Below, piece by piece: positions 1,358-12,971 of a DNA stretch of 21,197 bases; position 1 is the stretch's first letter; the number at the start of each line of letters is the position of its first letter. The translations under genes and the position numbers were made by a program. The notes under the pieces are model-generated. The model was given only the letters and a program-made list of their open reading frames with translations. It had not been told where the DNA came from and did not search any database. The stretch is from a virus, in IMG/VR virus record IMGVR_UViG_3300025466_000210, positions 1 to 21,197 of that record; one strand, 5' to 3'.

Positions 1358-1936
1358 ATGGCACAATATTCAGGTAATTTAATCGGACAACCGGGCGATA
1401 CCGGCACAACAGCATCAAGCGTAGCGGCGAACTATCGTCGTGCGATGAGCCCATTCAGCAACTTTGGCACACGTCAAATTGCTTTTTTAGCTGTTGAAAA
1501 TTTATCAGTAGATACAGACACAACAGAAGGATATGTTAGTGTTGCTGATACAAATAACACAGGCGGAACTGGTGAAACTTACGCAATCAACGATGCTTCA
1601 GGTAACGTAGTAGTTCCAGAAAGCCAAATCTTCAAGTCAAACAGCGCAATGTACAAAGCAATCAGTGGCATCCAATTGGCAGCTGAAGTTTGTTTTGTTG
1701 GACAGCCTACTTATTCTGGATCAGCTGGTACTAACCAGAAAGCCGCATTTATCGTAGGCATATATATCGATACAGCAGGCAGTTATAATGCTGATGAACA
1801 ACACGCAAGTATGCAAAACATGAATGCTCGTACAATCCAACAGGCTGTACGTGACGCTACTGGTGACAGCAGTGTTACAGTTGAACCAACATTCCCAATT
1901 GGTACAGCATTGGTAAAACCAGGACATGAGTATTAA
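1358..1936 (+). CDS. Virion-type array protein 1 (192 aa)
   Basis: First of five related proteins. Shared landmarks: an N-terminal YSGN..., then NYRR and an FGTRQIAFL block (about residues 25-45), a central AISGIQLAAEVCFVGQP block (about 102-118), a FIVGIYIDT strand (about 131-139), and a helical NARTIQQAVRDATGDSS region near the C-terminus. GAGGAG at 1345-1350 sets the start at 1358. It has a private late promoter, a 5' hairpin and a terminator. No signal peptide or membrane segment. Expression as a late gene and the low-complexity Ser/Thr/Asn/Ala-rich composition suggest a virion protein such as a head decoration or fibre component; that role is inference. The family's function is unknown to me. 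Confidence 0.85.
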   Translation: MAQYSGNLIGQPGDTGTTASSVAANYRRAMSPFSNFGTRQIAFLAVENLSVDTDTTEGYVSVADTNNTGGTGETYAINDASGNVVVPESQIFKSNSAMYKAISGIQLAAEVCFVGQPTYSGSAGTNQKAAFIVGIYIDTAGSYNADEQHASMQNMNARTIQQAVRDATGDSSVTVEPTFPIGTALVKPGHEY

Positions 1937-1972
1937 TCAGTAAATTTCCTGTTCGGGATGGGAAGCAAACTG

Positions 1973-1993
1973 GGGCTCTTTGAGCCCTTTTTT
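1973..1993 (+). terminator. Rho-independent terminator
   Basis: GGGCTC, loop TTT, GAGCCC, then TTTTTT. It is followed by GTTGGC, which recurs after the next terminator. Confidence 0.85.
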
Positions 1994-2002
1994 GTTGGCT
2001 GG

Positions 2003-2010
2003 TATAAATA
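2003..2010 (+). promoter_or_regulatory. Exact T4 late promoter TATAAATA
   Basis: Perfect match to the T4 late -10 consensus, with no sigma70 -35 needed. It lies 10 nt before the hairpin and 46 nt before the ATG at 2057. Confidence 0.75.
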
Positions 2011-2020
2011 CTATACAACG

Positions 2021-2035
2021 ATCACAGAGTGTGAT
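2021..2035 (+). promoter_or_regulatory. 5' leader hairpin, copy 2
   Basis: ATCACA, loop GAG, TGTGAT. The loop and four stem pairs match copy 1; the two outer pairs have changed on both sides so that pairing is kept. Confidence 0.6.
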
Positions 2036-2056
2036 TAAACCCATTAGGAGAGTAAA

Positions 2057-2608
2057 ATGGCAAAATATTCAGGCGACCAAGTCGCACATAACCCAGAAGT
2101 AGTAGCTAATTATCTACGTGTTGCACCAACAACACGTTTGGCCACACGTCAGATTCAATTCTTGAAAATACACGCAAGTGATAGCAATTTTTTCGCACCA
2201 TATTCTGAACTACCAAACAGCAATTTTAGCAAGGCAGTTCGCGGTGTACAAGCACAAGCAGAAGTAGTAATTATTGGTAGTCCAAACGGCAGCGCATTTG
2301 TTATCGGTGTTTATGCTGATACAATGAATGATGGTAACATCAGCGATCCAAACCACAATGATAGCTATGCTTACGCAAATAGTCTTGCTCGTACAATTGG
2401 AGAGTCAGTTACTGCTAGTTTAAATGGTGCTACAACTATTGACGTAGATCTTGTTGTAATGTATGGTTTAGAGTTTCTTGATTGGAACCGTGCTATTAAC
2501 TATGTTGACCCAACAGCTACACCAGCTACGATTGGTGCTAACTATGCTTACCAAGGTCAAAGTTCATACGAAAACGAACTATTCACCAACGGGGTAGTTA
2601 CACCTTAA
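2057..2608 (+). CDS. Virion-type array protein 2 (183 aa)
   Basis: Paralog of the preceding protein: MAKYSGDQ at the start, NYLR followed by LATRQIQFLK, a central FSKAVRGVQAQAEVVIIGSP block (about residues 59-78), then FVIGVYADTMNDGN (about 83-96) and a LARTIGESV helix. AGGAG at 2046-2050 supports the start. The C-terminal 45 residues (Tyr/Asn/Thr-rich, ending in NGVVTP) are not shared with the other copies, so divergence is concentrated at the C-terminus. It has an exact late promoter and its own terminator. Probably a virion protein; exact role unknown. Confidence 0.85.
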   Translation: MAKYSGDQVAHNPEVVANYLRVAPTTRLATRQIQFLKIHASDSNFFAPYSELPNSNFSKAVRGVQAQAEVVIIGSPNGSAFVIGVYADTMNDGNISDPNHNDSYAYANSLARTIGESVTASLNGATTIDVDLVVMYGLEFLDWNRAINYVDPTATPATIGANYAYQGQSSYENELFTNGVVTP

Positions 2609-2630
2609 TAGGTTATCGAGTTCAAACAAA

Positions 2631-2652
2631 AAGGATCCGAGGATCCTTTTTT
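2631..2652 (+). terminator. Rho-independent terminator
   Basis: AAGGATCC, loop GA, GGATCCTT, with a T run to 2652, followed by GTTGGC. Separates array proteins 2 and 3. Confidence 0.85.
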
Positions 2653-2662
2653 GTTGGCCCGA

Positions 2663-2669
2663 CTAAATA
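2663..2669 (+). promoter_or_regulatory. Late promoter element CTAAATA
   Basis: Between the terminator at 2631-2652 and the ATG at 2700. No hairpin is visible in this leader. Confidence 0.5.
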
Positions 2670-2699
2670 AAGTATAAACAGCATAAACAGGAGAACATT

Positions 2700-3245
2700 A
2701 TGCCATCATTAATCGGAACAAGTGTAGCGGCCAATTACCGCACACAACAAGTACCATTCAGCCGTTTTGGCTCACGCAAAGTAGTATGGTTCAACATCGG
2801 AGAAATTCGTTTCAGTGCTGAATCTAATTCACCAGACATCGTAATGACAACATTAAACACATTGATTGACACTATTCAAACTCGTGCTGAAGTTGCTATC
2901 ATTGGCGCACCACACGTGGGTTATAATCACGGTCGTATCACAGTTGGTGTATTTGAAGACACTTTCAACAACGGTAATAATCTTGCTATTGAAGAAAACA
3001 ATCCAGGAAACGGCCACAATCCTAAAGCTACTACACTACAAGATGCTATTCAAGAGGTATTGGGTGACAGTGCTACTGTAACCGAAGTTTTCTTGTTAGG
3101 CGGGTTAGCTGAAAATCCAGCTCAAGCTGGCGACTATGGCTGGACAACAGATGCTTCATTCCAAGAGTACTATACCAAGTTTGAATATGTTGAAAATTCA
3201 CCTATCAACCCAGATCCAAACTTGAAAGCGTTTTACAACTCTTAA
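2700..3245 (+). CDS. Virion-type array protein 3 (181 aa)
   Basis: Shorter N-terminus lacking the YSG motif (MPSLIGTSVAANYRT), then FGSRKVVWF, a central TLIDTIQTRAEVAIIGAP block (about residues 57-74) and ITVGVFEDTFNNGNN (about 82-96), which align with proteins 1 and 2. A helical TTLQDAIQEVLGDSATV region matches the C-terminal helix of protein 1. The C-terminal tail is again unique. CAGGAG supports the start. Private CTAAATA promoter and terminator. Function unknown; virion role inferred from late expression and family membership. Confidence 0.85.
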   Translation: MPSLIGTSVAANYRTQQVPFSRFGSRKVVWFNIGEIRFSAESNSPDIVMTTLNTLIDTIQTRAEVAIIGAPHVGYNHGRITVGVFEDTFNNGNNLAIEENNPGNGHNPKATTLQDAIQEVLGDSATVTEVFLLGGLAENPAQAGDYGWTTDASFQEYYTKFEYVENSPINPDPNLKAFYNS

Positions 3246-3265
3246 TCAGTAACAGATTAAACACT

Positions 3266-3288
3266 AAAGGATCTTAGGATCCTTTTTT
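3266..3288 (+). terminator. Rho-independent terminator
   Basis: AAAGGATC, loop TTAG, GATCCTTT with a T run, then GTTG. Its stem sequence is close to that of the terminator at 2631, as expected if the whole unit was duplicated. Confidence 0.8.
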
Positions 3289-3301
3289 GTTGACTGAAAC
3301 A

Positions 3302-3309
3302 TATAAATA
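3302..3309 (+). promoter_or_regulatory. Exact T4 late promoter TATAAATA
   Basis: Perfect consensus 25 nt before the ATG at 3335. Would drive array proteins 4 and 5 and probably the downstream protease, since no terminator follows at 4280. Confidence 0.75.
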
Positions 3310-3334
3310 CTTGAAACGCATTTAGGAGATAATA

Positions 3335-4279
3335 ATGCCAAAATATTCAGGTGATCAAATTTATCAAAACGGCGCATACGGCGAACTAGTTAGCCCAACC
3401 GCCCTTAATTACCGCAGAACAGAAGGTTCTAGTAATTTTGGTACACGTAAACTAGCATGGTACACAGTATGGATGGATCCAGATATTGGACTAGCCGCAA
3501 ACTACGCTGAAAATAATAGCTTATACTATCAAATTGTTCGTGCTATTCAACAAGGCGCTACACCAGGAATTTTTTCAAATCAAACTGGCGGAGCAGAATT
3601 GTTTTATGTCGGTACTCCACAGAACTCTAGTTCAAGTCCAATGAATCAAATAAGCCAAAGTAATGCTTATTCAGAGTATGGATGGTATGGATTAAAACCA
3701 ACAAACTTTACAGATAATTTTGATATTGTTAGTATTACACACAGCACACCTAGCGCAGGGTTTGCCACAGCAGTTATAACATCAGCTGCACAACCATTTA
3801 ATGTTGGTGATTTTTTAGGTATTAACGATACAAGTCATTATAATAATGGTATTAATGGCAACTACACGTATGCTACATCAGTTACTAACAATAATGACGG
3901 TACATGGTCTGTAGTTTTTGCTTCCACTAACACGCATGACGACGGCGCCGGCGGTTTTATGAGTGCCGATCTTGGCTATGACTGTTTTATGTTTGCCATT
4001 GCGGATGATGCTGAACCAATATTACCATTGGGAGAAAGCAGCCCTGGCGGCAACGGAACACTTTATACAGGTGTAGCGCAGGATTTTGAATGTTATTGTG
4101 ATGATTCTACAACCGAAACAACTATCGTTCCTATAAATTTCTTCGCAGCCATAGCCCAAGTTTTACAAGCAAACGATATAAGCACTAGTGGTGACTTGCC
4201 TCCAGGGGGTGATTCGTTTTATATCACTCGATGCCAAGATAGTTTTGGAATATTTCCTAACTACTTGTACAGCTACTAA
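3335..4279 (+). CDS. Virion-type array protein 4 (314 aa) with inserted beta domain
   Basis: Starts MPKYSGDQ with NYRR and NFGTRKLAWY, like proteins 1 and 2. The core then runs YYQIVRAIQQGA and ELFYVGTP (to about residue 95). A segment of about 80 residues (roughly 130-208; Thr/Asn/Gly-rich strands such as TAVITSAAQPFNVGDFLGI) is inserted before the core resumes with CFMFAIADDAE. A helical INFFAAIAQVLQANDI near the C-terminus matches the last shared helix. A similar segment sits at a different place in protein 5. AGGAG supports the start. Probably a virion protein with an extra surface domain. Confidence 0.85.
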   Translation: MPKYSGDQIYQNGAYGELVSPTALNYRRTEGSSNFGTRKLAWYTVWMDPDIGLAANYAENNSLYYQIVRAIQQGATPGIFSNQTGGAELFYVGTPQNSSSSPMNQISQSNAYSEYGWYGLKPTNFTDNFDIVSITHSTPSAGFATAVITSAAQPFNVGDFLGINDTSHYNNGINGNYTYATSVTNNNDGTWSVVFASTNTHDDGAGGFMSADLGYDCFMFAIADDAEPILPLGESSPGGNGTLYTGVAQDFECYCDDSTTETTIVPINFFAAIAQVLQANDISTSGDLPPGGDSFYITRCQDSFGIFPNYLYSY

Positions 4280-4295
4280 TAATTAAGGAATAATC

Positions 4296-5165
4296 ATGTC
4301 ACAATACGCAGGTAATTTATACAATCAAACTAACGCAAGAGAAGTTGCTGTTAACACACAAAAAGCTAGTCCAAGCAGTTTGTTTGGTACACGTAATTTA
4401 AAATTTTATAGTCTATTAGTAGATTTTAACTTGTATGGAGATATTGGTAATCCAATAGATGATCAATATCCTATTACCAGTATAGTAGGTGATGGTACCA
4501 CAGTTACTATTACGTTGGCTAATCCTATTAGCGAACTAGAAACTATTGTCCCAGGTGAAAGTAAATTTTTTATATTTGATGAAGCCTACAACATAGACAC
4601 TAGTGGATTCTACGGAGAGCATGTAATCAGCGCCTACACCAGCAACACAATAAGTTTTGCTTGGTATTATGTGGGAACTTACACATATTCTAGTGGCCCA
4701 CAACCTTTATTACAACTAGCAAGATACAATGAAGCAGATAGTTTTTATGGTTATCTAGTTCGTGCTATACAAAAAGTAGCAGAAGTCTACTATCTAGGTC
4801 GTCCATTTCCATCGTTGGCTACTGGCGTTTATAACTTGAACGCAGAGTATTATGGACCTGTATCATTTGTGTTTGGCATTGCCAACGACACAGTAGAAAA
4901 TGGCAACGACTACGGAGCAGACGCACAATTAGGTACAGAAGAAGATGGCTATAACTATCCATCGGGTAACCAATATCCAGGTACAACTTTTTCTGATTTA
5001 AACAGCAGCGGTACAAACCAAGGCACAGCTGACATCCTACAAGCATTGACCGAAATGCTATATCAATTTGGTTTTGGATACAATACTGATGGATGGTATT
5101 TGAACTATCTAGATGACTTAGGTTGGGGATTCCTTCCAGGACTAAGTGTTGGCAATGCAGCATAA
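4296..5165 (+). CDS. Virion-type array protein 5 (289 aa) with inserted beta domain
   Basis: MSQYAGN start and FGTRNLKFY block, then an inserted beta-rich segment (about residues 58-127, with GDGTTVTITLANPI and YGEHVISAYTSNTISFAW). The core resumes with SFYGYLVRAIQKVAEVYYLG (about 149-168) and FVFGIANDTVENGNDYG. The C-terminus is Trp/Tyr/Gly-rich. AAGGA just upstream gives the start. It follows protein 4 by 16 nt with no terminator, so the two are one transcript. Same inferred virion role as the rest of the array. Confidence 0.85.
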   Translation: MSQYAGNLYNQTNAREVAVNTQKASPSSLFGTRNLKFYSLLVDFNLYGDIGNPIDDQYPITSIVGDGTTVTITLANPISELETIVPGESKFFIFDEAYNIDTSGFYGEHVISAYTSNTISFAWYYVGTYTYSSGPQPLLQLARYNEADSFYGYLVRAIQKVAEVYYLGRPFPSLATGVYNLNAEYYGPVSFVFGIANDTVENGNDYGADAQLGTEEDGYNYPSGNQYPGTTFSDLNSSGTNQGTADILQALTEMLYQFGFGYNTDGWYLNYLDDLGWGFLPGLSVGNAA

Positions 5166-5191: not shown

Positions 5192-5413
5192 ATGGCACAT
5201 CCACAAACAATGACTCCTAGTAGAGTAGCATTATTAAGAGCTAATGGTAAAACTCTTTTAGATACAGCACATGCTAGCAAGTTATCTTTTAGAACTAAAT
5301 TAAGTATGCCAGGCGGCGCTTATGTACCTGCGGCTCTTCATAAATTAGCCACTACAACTCCAACAGCCGAACAATTGGCATTAAGAACAAAAGCTGGATT
5401 AGGTAGAAAATAA
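5192..5413 (+). CDS. 73-aa basic protein coupled to the S8 protease
   Basis: Start chosen at 5192 (MAHPQTMTPSRVALLRANGK) because AAGGAA precedes it; longer readings overlap array protein 5. The protein is small, basic and Ala/Leu/Thr-rich, ending in TKAGLGRK, with no cysteines and no membrane segment. Its TAA overlaps the ATG of the protease as TAATG, so the two are translationally coupled and likely act together; it could be a substrate, chaperone or anchoring peptide of the protease. No family recognised. Confidence 0.75.
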   Translation: MAHPQTMTPSRVALLRANGKTLLDTAHASKLSFRTKLSMPGGAYVPAALHKLATTTPTAEQLALRTKAGLGRK

Positions 5414-6957
5414 TGAGAGAATATGTCATTGTCGCTAAGAGCGAAGCAGATATTGACAGTCTACATGCTGAACTAGTAGCTAACGGCACTCCCGTAGCTG
5501 ACCTAGTTCCGTTGAACGAACTAACTTACCATTATATGCTAACCGATGAGGAAGCGGCTAAATTAGCCACGGATTCTCGTGTTGATGCTATACATTATAA
5601 ATTACCAGACAATGTTATTCGTCTACACGATGTAGTAGAAACTCTACGTGCTTACAACAACACAGCTGGCAACTTTGCTCGTCGTGCTACGAACCCAGAC
5701 TTGTACAATGTCAACTGGGGCCTACGCCGTGCTACATTGAACACTGCTGAAAGTACAGTAGGTACAACTTATTCTGCCGCCCGAGATGGTACAGGTGTTG
5801 ATATTGTTATCATGGACGATGGTGTACAGTCAGGACATCCAGAATTCGACGGTAGACTACAAACTGGTTTTGATTGGTATGCAGGCGCCGGAGTAGCAGG
5901 AACAATGCCCGCAGGCTTTTATGATTACAGTATCTACGGTGAAGCAGAACACGGAACTCACGTGGCTGGCATAGCTGCAGGTAAGACCTATGGTGCAGCT
6001 AAAGGTGCTAACATCTATAGCCTACGCATTTTTGATAATACAACTAGCGGTCCAGCTAAGAGCTTTGATCCATATACAGCATTTGATTTATTGCGTCTAT
6101 GGCATTTACGTAAGATTGCTCAAGGTAATCATCGTCCAACTATTGTTAATATGAGTTGGGGTTATGTTTGGTACTACAGTGAAAATCCAAATCGTACCAA
6201 TCAAAAAGTTATTAATAAAATTGTCTATGAAGGCACTACAACCAATTATCCAAGCTATACAGCCTATGTACCTAGCAAAGGTATGGTAGGTCCCGAGCAT
6301 TGTGTTATCGATGGCGCAACTGAAACACGTATAGCACAAGGTCAAGCCGCTGGTATTATCTATGTAACAGCCGCTGGTAACTATGGACATAAGATTGATG
6401 TATCAGGCGGCCCAGACTACAACAACTATTACACACTACCATTCAGTGGTGCCATTGCTCCAGCTAATACACCAATTTACTATCACCGTGGCGGAAGCCC
6501 AGGCGGTACAGTTCGTGTAAGTGCCGCAGACAGTGCTACCGTTCGTAGTGGAACTAGTTACTTAGAACAGCTGGCCTACTACAGTGAACGTGGCCCAGGA
6601 TGTGACGTTATCAGTCCAGGCACTGATATCACATCAAGCACAAGTAATGCGAGTAGTTTTAGTCCATTTAATTATGTATTTGGTACACAAAGTCAAAGTA
6701 CAACTTATAAGGCTTGTAAGATTGCTGGAACCAGTATGGCAACTCCAAATGTAACTGGAGTAATTGCCCTGTACTTACAGGCTAACCCCACAGCTACACC
6801 AGCACAAGTTCGAGCATGGGTCACAGCACAGGCCAAGTCCAGTCAAGTATATAATCCTACTACTAGTACTAATGCTTGGTCAAACAGCACAGCATTGTTA
6901 GGAGCACCTAACAAGTTCTTGTACAATCCCTATCACGGTGGCTATTCTGGAGCATAA
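5413..6957 (+). CDS. Subtilisin-like serine protease (peptidase S8), 514 aa
   Basis: Catalytic triad visible: Asp135 in VDIVIMDDGVQSGHPEF, His180 in EHGTHVAGIAAG, Ser441 in AGTSMATPNVTG, with the oxyanion Asn323 in AAGNYG. Residues 1-70 (MREYVIVAKSEADIDSLHAE... to KLPDNVIRL) look like an inhibitor-type (I9-like) propeptide domain, so the enzyme is probably made as a zymogen that self-cleaves around residues 70-100. No signal peptide, so not exported by Sec; it more likely acts in the infected cell or in the virion. It overlaps the 73-aa gene by one base and follows the virion-type array with no terminator between, suggesting late expression. Such proteases are occasional in T4-like aquatic phages. 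Substrate unknown; the neighbouring array proteins are candidates. Confidence 0.93.
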   Translation: MREYVIVAKSEADIDSLHAELVANGTPVADLVPLNELTYHYMLTDEEAAKLATDSRVDAIHYKLPDNVIRLHDVVETLRAYNNTAGNFARRATNPDLYNVNWGLRRATLNTAESTVGTTYSAARDGTGVDIVIMDDGVQSGHPEFDGRLQTGFDWYAGAGVAGTMPAGFYDYSIYGEAEHGTHVAGIAAGKTYGAAKGANIYSLRIFDNTTSGPAKSFDPYTAFDLLRLWHLRKIAQGNHRPTIVNMSWGYVWYYSENPNRTNQKVINKIVYEGTTTNYPSYTAYVPSKGMVGPEHCVIDGATETRIAQGQAAGIIYVTAAGNYGHKIDVSGGPDYNNYYTLPFSGAIAPANTPIYYHRGGSPGGTVRVSAADSATVRSGTSYLEQLAYYSERGPGCDVISPGTDITSSTSNASSFSPFNYVFGTQSQSTTYKACKIAGTSMATPNVTGVIALYLQANPTATPAQVRAWVTAQAKSSQVYNPTTSTNAWSNSTALLGAPNKFLYNPYHGGYSGA

Positions 6958-6974: not shown

Positions 6975-7754
6975 ATGTTCGAAAGCTATCAACTAAGACT
7001 CGACTGGAGTCAAGACCTTCCACGCTATTGGTGTGACAACAGTCCGTTCAAAACACATTTCTTAAATGCACAAAGCATTGTGTTTCCTTCAGCTGAACGA
7101 TTCTTTATATCTACTGTAAAACAACATAGAGAGAATGTCACTGATCCGGTATTAAAGGCTGAAGTCGCTGAGTTTGTCAAACAAGAAATATGGCATACCT
7201 ACGCCCATGAACAATACAACAAGTGGTTAGACAACCAAGGATTTCCTGCTGGTGATATGGCCCACGCAAGTGACCGTAGATTTGAATGGATAAAGAAAAC
7301 ATTTAGTCCACGATCACAGTTAGCTATCACTGTGGCTTGTGAACACATCACTGCGTTGACTGGGGCTCATTCATTACAAAATCGATCATTCTTAAAACGA
7401 ATGGATCCGCACTTTGAAAATATATGGAGATGGCACAGTATTGAGGAAGTGGAACATAAATCAGTTACCATGGATGTATATCGAACTATAAATGGCAAAA
7501 CGATCCGTAGACAACTGGCATTGATATTTGCTATAATGCTGTATGTGTGGAGTGTTGGTAAAACAACAGTTCAGTTGTTACATGCTGATAAACAGCTATG
7601 GAAACTTCAAACAGCTATAGATGCTTGGCAGATGTTATTTGCCCCCAAGGGTGTAATTAGAGAAACATGGATCAAAGTGTTACATTTTTTCCGTAAAGAT
7701 TTTCATCCCACGGACCACGATGACACTCAATTAATGAATTTTAGAAAAACATGA
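6975..7754 (+). CDS. PF10118-type predicted di-iron protein (metal-dependent hydrolase family), 259 aa
   Basis: Matches the pattern of the PF10118 family annotated as predicted metal-dependent hydrolases. Helices carry acidic/His pairs: FPSAERFF (Glu41), KQEIWHTYAHEQYN (Glu71, His74, His78), ACEHITALTG (Glu123) and RWHSIEEVEHKSVTMDVY (Glu157, Glu160, His161), the layout of a ferritin-like di-iron site. A hydrophobic helix (about 181-194) could touch the membrane or bind lipid. Full length for the family. Its TGA overlaps the start of an acyl carrier protein (ATGA), pointing to an acyl chain as substrate, for instance oxidation or hydrolysis of an acyl-ACP. That activity is inference; the family has little biochemistry that I know of. 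Confidence 0.85.
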   Translation: MFESYQLRLDWSQDLPRYWCDNSPFKTHFLNAQSIVFPSAERFFISTVKQHRENVTDPVLKAEVAEFVKQEIWHTYAHEQYNKWLDNQGFPAGDMAHASDRRFEWIKKTFSPRSQLAITVACEHITALTGAHSLQNRSFLKRMDPHFENIWRWHSIEEVEHKSVTMDVYRTINGKTIRRQLALIFAIMLYVWSVGKTTVQLLHADKQLWKLQTAIDAWQMLFAPKGVIRETWIKVLHFFRKDFHPTDHDDTQLMNFRKT

Positions 7755-7987
7755 AAGATATTACACAACAAGTTATTGCTATAATAGCAGATGAGTTACG
7801 GTTAAAACTTGAAGCTGTTACCGTTGACAAATTACTCAAAGATGATCTAGGTGTAGAAAGTTTAGATGCACTGGAAATACTTATTGCTTTGGAAGATGGT
7901 TTCAAAATAGTATATCCAGAAGACAGCCACGAACACATTAAAACAGTTCAAGATGTTATAGATATTACTCGCAAGTTGGTTAAGTAA
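7751..7987 (+). CDS. acpP: Acyl carrier protein, 78 aa
   Basis: Length and acidic character fit an acyl carrier protein. The phosphopantetheine attachment site is DDLGVESLDALEIL with Ser37; the usual DSL is ESL here. The recognition helix is followed by the conserved ALEDGFKI (usually ALEEEFgI). A host phosphopantetheinyl transferase would have to activate it, since none is seen in the window. It starts within the stop of the di-iron protein gene (ATGA), so the two are made together. It may carry the acyl substrate of that protein, or divert host lipid synthesis. No ketosynthase or other fatty acid enzyme is nearby. Confidence 0.92.
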   Translation: MKDITQQVIAIIADELRLKLEAVTVDKLLKDDLGVESLDALEILIALEDGFKIVYPEDSHEHIKTVQDVIDITRKLVK

Positions 7988-10891: not shown

Positions 10892-11887
10892 ATGCAAATT
10901 AGAGAAATTTCAAAACAAGTAACAGCTAAGGCATTAAACGAAAGCCTAGCAAAGAAGTTCGGATATAAATTGAACTTAGAGCAATTTACCACGGAACAGC
11001 TAGAGGATGCACGTAATAAACTACGTACAAAAATTAGCCAGTTTGAAGTTAGCGAAAGCTACGAAGGTATGCAAAAGAACACAGATTATCAAAAAACTCG
11101 TGCTATGCTAGATTGCGTAAATCAGGAAATTATGGAACGTGAAATGCAACCTGAAGACAAGGCCAAAGAGAAAACATTGAAGAAAAAGTTTGACAAATCA
11201 GATATGAAGGCCAATATGAAAAAACAGTATGGTGAAACTAAAGGTAAAGAAATTTATTTTGCTAGCATTCGTAAAAAGGCTATGGATCATAGCGTTCCTG
11301 AAAGCTGGATCGATTCAGCTATTGAACGTATCGAATTAGGCGAAACAGATCAACAAGAACTAAAAGCAGAATTAACAACAAGATATGATCTAAAAGAAAG
11401 TGTGGCACGCCACATTGTATATCTCGCAGAAGGCGAAGAAGAAAAAGCCAAAGTAATTATGGCTACTAAAGATATGGTTGACCAAGTTACTGGTTGGCTA
11501 GAAGATACAGCTACATTAAAAGCTGAACAGCTTTTAGAATTAATGGACTCTATAAGAGAAACACTAGGAAGCGATGTTGCTTCTAAATATGAACAGGCAG
11601 TTAAGCCAGCACTAGAATCTGTTTACACAGCATTAGAATCAAGTCGTCAAGGTCTACAAACTGGTCTAGCATTAGTATCAGGCGGTGAAGCACCAACAAT
11701 GGGTGCTGAGCCAGCTATGGGCGGTGCAGAAGGCGAGATGGGTGCTCCAGAGATGGGTGCTCCAGAGATGGGTGCTCCAGAAGACATGGCAGCTGGCCCA
11801 GCTCCAGAAGCCGCAGGCAGAGAAAAACGTGAAAGCGTCGACTATAGTCGTCGACTAGGCATGTTATTAGCTTCAAAAAAAAAGTAA
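10892..11887 (+). CDS. Large helical late protein with Met-Gly-Ala-Pro repeats (331 aa), probable virion/head protein
   Basis: Starts MQIREISKQVTAKALNESLA; a weak AGGG lies upstream and an exact late promoter precedes it. Residues 1-265 are charged and helical (for example DKAKEKTLKKKFDKSDMKAN). Residues 270-315 are a low-complexity stretch with three perfect 15-bp DNA repeats giving EMGAP three times, and the end is VDYSRRLGMLLASKKK. Composition and late expression fit a scaffold or internal head protein; this is inference. The last codons are AAA AAA AAG TAA, a run of nine A with a classic A-AAA-AAG slippery heptamer, and a second open frame continues from here, so a longer fused product is possible. 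Confidence 0.85.
   Translation: MQIREISKQVTAKALNESLAKKFGYKLNLEQFTTEQLEDARNKLRTKISQFEVSESYEGMQKNTDYQKTRAMLDCVNQEIMEREMQPEDKAKEKTLKKKFDKSDMKANMKKQYGETKGKEIYFASIRKKAMDHSVPESWIDSAIERIELGETDQQELKAELTTRYDLKESVARHIVYLAEGEEEKAKVIMATKDMVDQVTGWLEDTATLKAEQLLELMDSIRETLGSDVASKYEQAVKPALESVYTALESSRQGLQTGLALVSGGEAPTMGAEPAMGGAEGEMGAPEMGAPEMGAPEDMAAGPAPEAAGREKRESVDYSRRLGMLLASKKK
11735..11779 (+). repeat. Three perfect tandem copies of a 15-bp unit
   Basis: GAGATGGGTGCTCCA three times in a row inside the 331-aa gene, encoding EMGAP three times. Identical copies at the DNA level suggest recent slippage expansion. Confidence 0.9.
11875..11884 (+). other. Slippery run A9-G before a stop: candidate -1 frameshift or transcript slippage site
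   Basis: Nine A then G, containing A-AAA-AAG in the phase needed for -1 slippage, directly followed by the TAA. Slipping joins the 331-aa protein to 110 further codons ending at 12216. An 8-bp stem (CCCTTAGT/ACTAAGGG, 11914-11935) lies 29 nt downstream, farther than a usual stimulator. Confidence 0.4.
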
Positions 11888-12216
11888 TTCAAACAATCCG
11901 TGAAAGTGTAGACCCCTTAGTTTTAACACTAAGGGCTTTACAAGCCGATGCTAATAACAAGCATATTCAGGCTCCACTAACGTGGGATGCAATCAATCAA
12001 CTAGGTAAGGAATATGGTAGTCCAGATATCGACTACGATCGCTTTGCCGCACGTTGGGATTCAGATCCTGTTCTAAAAAAATTAGTCAGTCGTTTTGACG
12101 GCCACGGTGTAGTTGTTTCTACAGATGAGCAGGAACCAAAACCTGAGCAAGGCGAACCAAAACCTGAGTTAATCGACAAAGCCGCGATGAACGCTACAAA
12201 ACGAGCAATGAAATAA
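11887..12216 (+). CDS. 109-codon open frame with no normal start; conserved phage protein or frameshift extension
   Basis: Open from inside the previous gene to TAA at 12214-12216, reading IQTIRESVDPLVLTLRALQA and later LTWDAINQLGKEYGSPDIDY and VLKKLVSRFDGHGVVV. The only in-frame ATGs are near the end. Its content (heptad-like helices, then an acidic-Pro linker with EPKPE twice) looks like real protein and resembles a small conserved protein of T4-like marine phages. Three readings fit: a -1 frameshift extension of the 331-aa protein; an AUU start at 11887, whose TAATT junction mimics the TAATG overlaps at 5411 and 20353 and whose N-terminus (QTIRES) resembles QIREIS of the gene before; or one miscounted A in the run of nine. 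I list it from the ATT. Confidence 0.6.
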   Translation: MQTIRESVDPLVLTLRALQADANNKHIQAPLTWDAINQLGKEYGSPDIDYDRFAARWDSDPVLKKLVSRFDGHGVVVSTDEQEPKPEQGEPKPELIDKAAMNATKRAMK

Positions 12217-12245
12217 TTGACCTTTAGGATCTAAGACTATATAAT
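12217..12245 (+). promoter_or_regulatory. Strong sigma70-type promoter for the nuclease gene
   Basis: TTGACC (12217-12222), exactly 17 bp, TATAAT (12240-12245). The expected start point, 6-8 nt downstream, coincides with the ATG at 12252, implying a leaderless message. The -35 begins immediately after the previous stop codon. Confidence 0.75.
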
Positions 12246-12251
12246 TGTCCT

Positions 12252-12971
12252 ATGACCCTACTCAAAGAAAGATTTAACTACACACCTATAAGTAGAGAAA
12301 GTGTAGAAGGCAAGCGTTTATATGCAACACCAGATGGCAGTAAAGTTCCTAGCGTTACTACCATTCTTGACAAAACAAAACCCAAAGAAAAGATGGAAGC
12401 CTTAATGGCTTGGAAACGTCGAGTGGGCGAAGTTAAAGCACAAGAAATTGTAACTGAAGCTGCAGGACGTGGTACACGTATGCACAAGTTCTTAGAGGAC
12501 TATGTTAAAACAGGTGCTATACAACCTCCAGGAACTAATCCTTATAGTAAACAAAGTCATGCTATGGCTCAAGTTGTTATATCACAGGGCTTATGTAATG
12601 TAAACGAAATCTGGGGGGTAGAAGTTCCGTTATATTATCCAGGATTATATGCAGGGACAACTGACGGTTGCGGTTTACATTTAAACGATGAATCCATTAT
12701 TGACTACAAACAAACTAACAAGCCCAAGAAAGAAGAGTGGATTGAAGATTATTATCTACAGCTAACAGCTTATGCACTGGCCCATAATGAAGTACATGGA
12801 ACTAACATACACAAGGGCGTGGTCCTAATGTGCGTTAGCCCTAAGATGAACGAAAAATTGGAAATGATTGATGTGCCCGTATATCAAGAGTTTATTCTAA
12901 AACCCCAAGATTTCAGCTACTGGGAAGGCAAGTGGTGGGATAGGGTCGAGCAATACTACGCTCTAACTTGA
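12252..12971 (+). CDS. PD-(D/E)XK exonuclease, MGME1/RecB-like (239 aa)
   Basis: Core motifs in order: VPSVTTIL (about 32-39), RGTRMHKFLE with His78, GVEVPL with Glu124, AGTTDG with Asp138, IIDYKQ giving the Asp151-X-Lys153 catalytic pair, and YLQLTAYA with the Gln170/Tyr174 motif common to RecB-type and MGME1-type nucleases. It should cut or trim single-stranded DNA ends during phage replication or recombination, or help degrade host DNA. No ribosome binding site precedes the start, which agrees with a leaderless transcript from the sigma70 promoter. Early expression makes sense for a DNA-metabolism enzyme, in contrast to the late genes on both sides. Confidence 0.9.
   Translation: MTLLKERFNYTPISRESVEGKRLYATPDGSKVPSVTTILDKTKPKEKMEALMAWKRRVGEVKAQEIVTEAAGRGTRMHKFLEDYVKTGAIQPPGTNPYSKQSHAMAQVVISQGLCNVNEIWGVEVPLYYPGLYAGTTDGCGLHLNDESIIDYKQTNKPKKEEWIEDYYLQLTAYALAHNEVHGTNIHKGVVLMCVSPKMNEKLEMIDVPVYQEFILKPQDFSYWEGKWWDRVEQYYALT

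Follow-up and report, generated by a model that had tools for sequence, protein, structure and literature searches.

A conserved nine-adenine junction is predicted to fuse two virion proteins by −1 recoding in a clade of T4-like phages

We identified a conserved gene junction at which a clade of phages, here called the A9 clade, most likely expresses a second protein as a 441-aa fusion via −1 recoding. Production of the fusion is what we infer from a conserved split between two reading frames, a coding −1 frame, a run of nine A's (A9) and a downstream hairpin. Together, these strongly support the first of the three explanations originally offered, in which a programmed −1 shift or slippage during transcription yields a fusion, and on this sequence evidence recoding by one route or the other is highly probable. 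The ribosome seems somewhat the better candidate for the main agent of the shift. No report of this frameshift was found in the open-licence papers searched; a conserved frameshift fusing two virion proteins is new as a case, while its type of mechanism is already known.

The window, that is, the whole stretch of DNA analysed, was a virus record of 21,197 bases. Its upstream zero-frame gene (10892–11887, plus strand) is an ORF of 331 aa that ends in TCA AAA AAA AAG TAA, with the nine A's at 11875–11883, G at 11884, and the stop codon at 11885–11887. This shift site (A9-G-TAA, 11875–11887, plus strand) contains two in-frame heptamers, A_AAA_AAA (11875–11881) and A_AAA_AAG (11878–11884), the latter directly abutted by the TAA, and its A9 is the only run of at least eight A's in the window. 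The −1 frame stays open between 11848 and a stop at 12214–12216 and encodes 110 residues when read from GTA at 11884 (11884–12216, plus strand). As had been predicted, no start codon was found near its beginning, and Met codons occur only near its end. Re-reading the sequence confirmed the letters and coordinates proposed earlier for the gene end, the A-run and the −1 frame; the length of the proposed fusion was corrected from 440 to 441 aa (331 + 110).

Relatives were then compared. A search with the −1 frame only, independent of the A-run, identified 27 relatives with the same split in all, and searches with the upstream protein identified several hundred further contigs, the best 80 per search being used. 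The alignments comprised 75 members for the −1 domain and 72 for the upstream protein. The −1 domain was present in 80 distinct rows; in 79 of them A9-G, A9-C, A10, or A11 preceded TAA, and no locus had both parts in one frame. The sole exception was L245, a single contig whose junction was lost by a deletion (3950–4180) that brings the parts together, out of frame, at a short GGCCGCGT-like sequence they have in common; the deletion is either natural or an assembly artefact.

The sequence A9-N-TAA was invariant in 76 distinct intact junctions, which answers in the affirmative whether relatives keep the split with an out-of-frame run. The codon preceding the lysines was TCA in 72, CCA in three, and CAA in one, the two following codons were AAA AAA and the zero-frame stop was TAA in all 76, and the tenth base (N) was G in 60, A in 10, and C in six. 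The base before the Lys-Lys codons is A whether the preceding codon specifies Ser, Pro, or Gln. Every junction carried an X_XXY_YYZ heptamer in the zero frame (A_AAA_AAG, A_AAA_AAA, or A_AAA_AAC), the form with N = C being a weaker bacterial ribosomal site. Since TCA accounts for 33% of Ser codons and AAA for 64% of Lys codons in the same genes, the nine A's appear to be kept as nucleotides. Outside the junction, A9 was seen 0 times against 7.3 expected in approximately 250 kb of coding sequence from the relatives' loci; in the coding sequences of these loci, runs of at least eight A's were seen 6 times against 34 expected, and in-frame A_AAA_AAG 7 times against 23. Elsewhere in these genes, avoidance increases from runs of 7 to 8 to 9 A's, and the junction retains about nine or more, the pattern sought as a sign of transcriptional slippage.

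The −1 frame, which lacks a conserved start codon, remained open for about 100–120 codons in all intact junctions compared. Its differences fell at codon positions 1, 2, and 3 in the numbers 219, 102, and 507, indicating that it evolves as coding sequence under purifying selection. One copy of the −1 domain was present in each of six long contigs, none with its own start, and identity in this domain among relatives with the same layout, drawn from dozens of independent metagenomes, went down to approximately 36%. A downstream −1 frame that is coding, conserved and devoid of its own start is the arrangement looked for in programmed −1 frameshifting.

The structure model of the 331-aa protein (mean pLDDT 77) was all-helical with a long helical hairpin (about residues 180–263), a disordered acidic stretch rich in Gly, Pro, Ala, and Glu, and a C-terminal KRESVDYSRRLGMLLASKKK. 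Of the 72 aligned upstream proteins, 64 matched the virion structural protein phrog_14154, which belongs to the head-and-packaging class. The 110-residue −1 domain was modelled as a small winged-helix-like fold with a charged tail (mean pLDDT 72). Pfam contained no family match for either part. In fold comparisons with the PDB, the −1 domain resembled winged helices (best Z 5.2) and the upstream protein helical hairpins (best Z 9.3); these are common arrangements only, from which no functional conclusion was drawn. Many relatives have a Cys-rich insert (CPDCHKDPCxC) at about residues 85–100 that is absent from the window's copy. This short stretch recurs in gp136 of Synechococcus phage (cyanophage) S-T4 and in a cytidyltransferase family; gp136 was rejected as an orthologue, since this stretch was all that matched.

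An RNA hairpin of 14 pairs with one C-C mismatch, a 6-nt loop, and a stability of −16.5 kcal/mol was identified at 11907–11942 (plus strand). The original prediction had placed an 8-bp stem at 11914–11935, 29 nt downstream and farther than usual for a stimulator. The inner stem is indeed there (11914–11921/11928–11935), but it extends across the mismatch to 11907–11942 and starts 23 nt after the heptamer. The distance does exceed the usual 5–8 nt of −1 frameshifting stimulators (PMC4066793), but the hairpin is conserved and covarying, and begins mostly 10–15 nt after the heptamer in relatives, with 23–24 nt in the window's subgroup.

In the commonest register, a Pro codon contributes its third base to a pair whose partner is the second base of the codon an eight-amino-acid span downstream. 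This pair takes the forms C-G, G-C, A-U, and U-A, the encoded amino acids differing, and the covarying codon pairs in the stem were CCC/AGG, CCG/ACG, CCA/ATG, and CCT/AAG. The covariation score of 63 sequences was 0.205 versus 0.122 for shuffled ones, with no shuffle out of 500 reaching that value, and sliding the partner gave 0.044–0.135, all below the observed score. The arms use codons that are scarce in the upstream genes (AGG, 1 of 308 Arg codons; CCC, 5 of 250 Pro codons). When folding of the 78 nt after the junction was compared with synonymous recodings, the mean z was −2.73 and 67% of sequences lay below −2, versus a mean z of −0.24 and 4% in a control stretch further on. The covariation, the rare arm codons and the stability beyond that of synonymous recodings indicate that the stem itself, not the protein alone, is selected near the junction.

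Distant members keep the hairpin in other registers or at other positions, 4–31 nt from the heptamer. RNAalifold gave no consensus for all 63 stem sequences, because distant members use another register, and a count of the named structure and the synonymous-recoding test were used in its place. A few members (L090, L130, L078) had no good hairpin within 78 nt, and an Rfam search gave no match. Two other candidate signals were rejected: the upstream palindrome GTCGACTATAGTCGTCGAC, which is not conserved, and a Shine-Dalgarno stimulator, as the AGG lying approximately 18 nt 5′ of the heptamer is missing in some members and variable in spacing.

We propose the following mechanism. Most translation would end at the TAA after A9, yielding the 331-aa virion protein. 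In a set minority of events, the reading frame would slip by −1 at TCA-AAA-AAA-AAG, letting the ribosome continue in the new frame and add the 110-residue domain to give the 441-aa protein. The tRNA-Lys would slip on A_AAA_AAG, or one codon earlier on A_AAA_AAA, while the abutting stop codon and the downstream hairpin would hold the ribosome. In this way, a constant proportion of the first protein would carry the second into the particle. The ribosomal rather than the transcriptional slip is favoured because of the heptamers and because the 3′ hairpin is still untranscribed while the polymerase is on the run; a stoichiometric purpose is likewise the reading we favour. The run length is compatible with a ribosomal slip, as A9 holds two in-frame heptamers. 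The hairpin spacing beyond 5–8 nt speaks against the ribosomal reading; the long spacing could mean that the stop codon, not AAG, is in the A site of the held ribosome. Also against it, A1–A3, which lie outside A_AAA_AAG, are constrained as well, which fits slippage by RNA polymerase too. The few members lacking a good hairpin and the weaker N = C site also count against it.

The strongest competing explanation is that the polymerase adds one A in some transcripts (A10), which would give the same 441-aa protein, the hairpin then serving another purpose. We consider this the less likely route, although slippage on A9 may contribute or even dominate. What stays constant is a run of at least nine A's, the tenth base being free to vary (G, A, or C), and the avoidance of long A-runs elsewhere in these genes points the same way. 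In many bacterial genomes, A/T runs begin to be selected against once they reach nine (PMC1088944), and Thermus dnaX and IS elements make use of A9 slippage (PMC1088944, PMC5009743). Against this, polymerase slippage leaves unexplained the strong conservation of a hairpin not yet made when the polymerase is on the run, and the length of A9 is equally explicable for the ribosome. A trade-off between longer A-runs and weaker hairpins was not significant either, the hairpins of members with A10 or A11 being not significantly weaker (p = 0.18).

Separate translation of the orphan frame was also considered, with termination at the TAA coupled to a start at AUU (11887) or at some other non-standard codon. 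AUU is a known rare start codon (infC), the window's junction reads TAATT, and the Rak2-like homologue described below has its own start. However, the second codon of the −1 frame was ATT in only 38 of the 76 junctions, being otherwise AAT, AGT, ACT, ATA, ATC, ATG, or AAA. None of the 76 had a Shine-Dalgarno-like motif (GGAG, GAGG, or AGGA) in the 20 nt before the junction, and separate initiation would leave the A9 and the hairpin unexplained. The resemblance of QTIRES to the QIREIS of the preceding gene, put forward in favour of this start, is not conserved, most relatives having V-N-E or V-I-x-E. We therefore regard AUU initiation as very unlikely. Finally, homopolymers are error-prone in principle, but a missing A is excluded by the same out-of-frame layout in many contigs from dozens of independent metagenomes, never fused in frame, and a recently broken gene is contradicted by the purifying selection on the −1 frame.

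The probable origin of the −1 domain was found in the Rak2-like phages, which are cultivated jumbo phages. In GAP32, RaK2, CBB, PBECO4, BF, and XaC1, a homologue of the upstream protein adjoins a protein of 107–118 residues (e.g., CBB_298/299, GAP32_293/294, and RaK2 ORF135/136), the two being ordinary separate ATG genes with a variable relative frame and no A9, unlike the junction of the A9 clade. The link was reached via structure searches, distant members and a tblastn match to Vibrio phage 2.275.O; the window's own −1 frame as the query gave no match in phage records, and the genome collection held no relative. The upstream proteins of the A9 clade and the Rak2-like virion protein are homologous (hhalign Prob 96, E 1e-9) and have in common a C-terminal K-E-S...L-G...E/A-S-K pattern. 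The −1 domain and the Rak2-like second protein are weakly alike in sequence (hhalign Prob 39, E 3e-4). Both parts are thus linked by sequence, the second weakly, and lie in the same gene order; from the weak likeness, the gene order and the similar fold, the −1 domain is probably the counterpart of the Rak2-like second protein. In the virion of CBB, mass spectrometry found CBB_298 and CBB_299 with 10 and 2 unique peptides, respectively (PMC5259590).

The gene after the split encodes an exonuclease (ORF 12252–12971, plus strand; phrog_298, E 6e-51), and an exonuclease gene also follows the Rak2-like pair, GAP32_295 being 46% identical to the window's product; its place next to the split gives synteny with the Rak2-like phages. 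A sigma70-like promoter was read from the sequence directly after the −1-frame stop (TTGACC-17-TATAAT, 12217–12245, plus strand), and TTGACA/TATAAT-like sequences are kept before the exonuclease gene in relatives. A T4-type major capsid gene was present in four of seven long A9-clade contigs. T4-type Gp23 capsid genes were seen in the jumbo-size A9-clade contigs G001 (356,312 bases) and G002 (345,369 bases). The A9 clade is a large uncultivated T4-like group, some members of which are jumbo phages with relatives among the Rak2-like ones.

Relatives with a clean ATG, which had been expected to count against recoding, do exist, but only among the Rak2-like phages, where they are distant and ordinary separate genes. 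They show the probable descent of the orphan frame from a separate second gene of the Rak2-like type rather than refute recoding. The shift would then replace two separate adjacent virion genes. Tentatively, we suggest that a two-gene virion module was rewired to an obligatory frameshift fusion: the clade would have lost the second start, and a composite signal would set the ratio, comprising A9 acting on polymerase and ribosome, the abutting stop, and a hairpin of steady strength with drifting position and register.

The proposed signal resembles known systems in part. A_AAA_AAG with a 3′ hairpin is standard in bacterial −1 frameshifting (PMC4066793), and dnaX-type sites have the same heptamer and 3′ stem-loop; some bacteria have the zero-frame stop abutting the site and make the long product by the shift (PMC5009743). 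Unlike these, the phage site has A9 rather than A6-G, no Shine-Dalgarno stimulator, a more distant hairpin that drifts in position and register, and a phage virion protein as its product. The A9 slippage of Thermus dnaX and IS elements likewise combines a conserved nine-A run with split ORFs that one additional A brings together (PMC1088944), whereas the phage junction has a conserved 3′ hairpin unneeded by polymerase slippage. Like G/GT of lambda, the phage gene would have a −1 C-terminal extension made at a set ratio (PMC5009743), but the proteins are unrelated. No significant Pfam or PHROGs match to tail assembly chaperones was found, and homologues of the A9-clade proteins (CBB_298/CBB_299; homologues only) occur in mature virions (PMC5259590), from which G and GT are absent.

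If correct, this reading would provide a natural example, spread over several hundred environmental phage contigs, of separate virion genes becoming a frameshift-controlled fusion, with both states extant for comparison. It would also offer a large natural data set on what the signal needs in run length, tenth base, stop codon and hairpin position, and would correct annotation in the A9 clade, where the second protein, having no start codon, escapes gene finders. The ribosomal and transcriptional routes give the same protein when N is G or A, and differ by one residue when N is C (SKKNL if ribosomal, SKKKL if transcriptional). With N = G the joint reads SKKKV by either route, so the fused peptide originally suggested for mass spectrometry does not distinguish them.

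Other genes of the window were also noted. Several consecutive genes at 1358–5165 have a common N-terminal pattern (M-x-x-Y-S/A-G-x ... N-Y-R ... F-G-T-R) and probably form a tandem paralogous structural family. A 514-aa protein (5413–6957), directly after a 96-aa ORF, contains the subtilisin-like motifs DDGVQSGHPEF, GTHVAGIAAG, and GTSMATPNV and is a putative phage-borne subtilase. The stretch 6975–7987 encodes a predicted metal-dependent hydrolase (PF10118, E 1e-74) and, after it, a 78-aa protein whose sequence resembles an acyl carrier protein (GVESLDALE).
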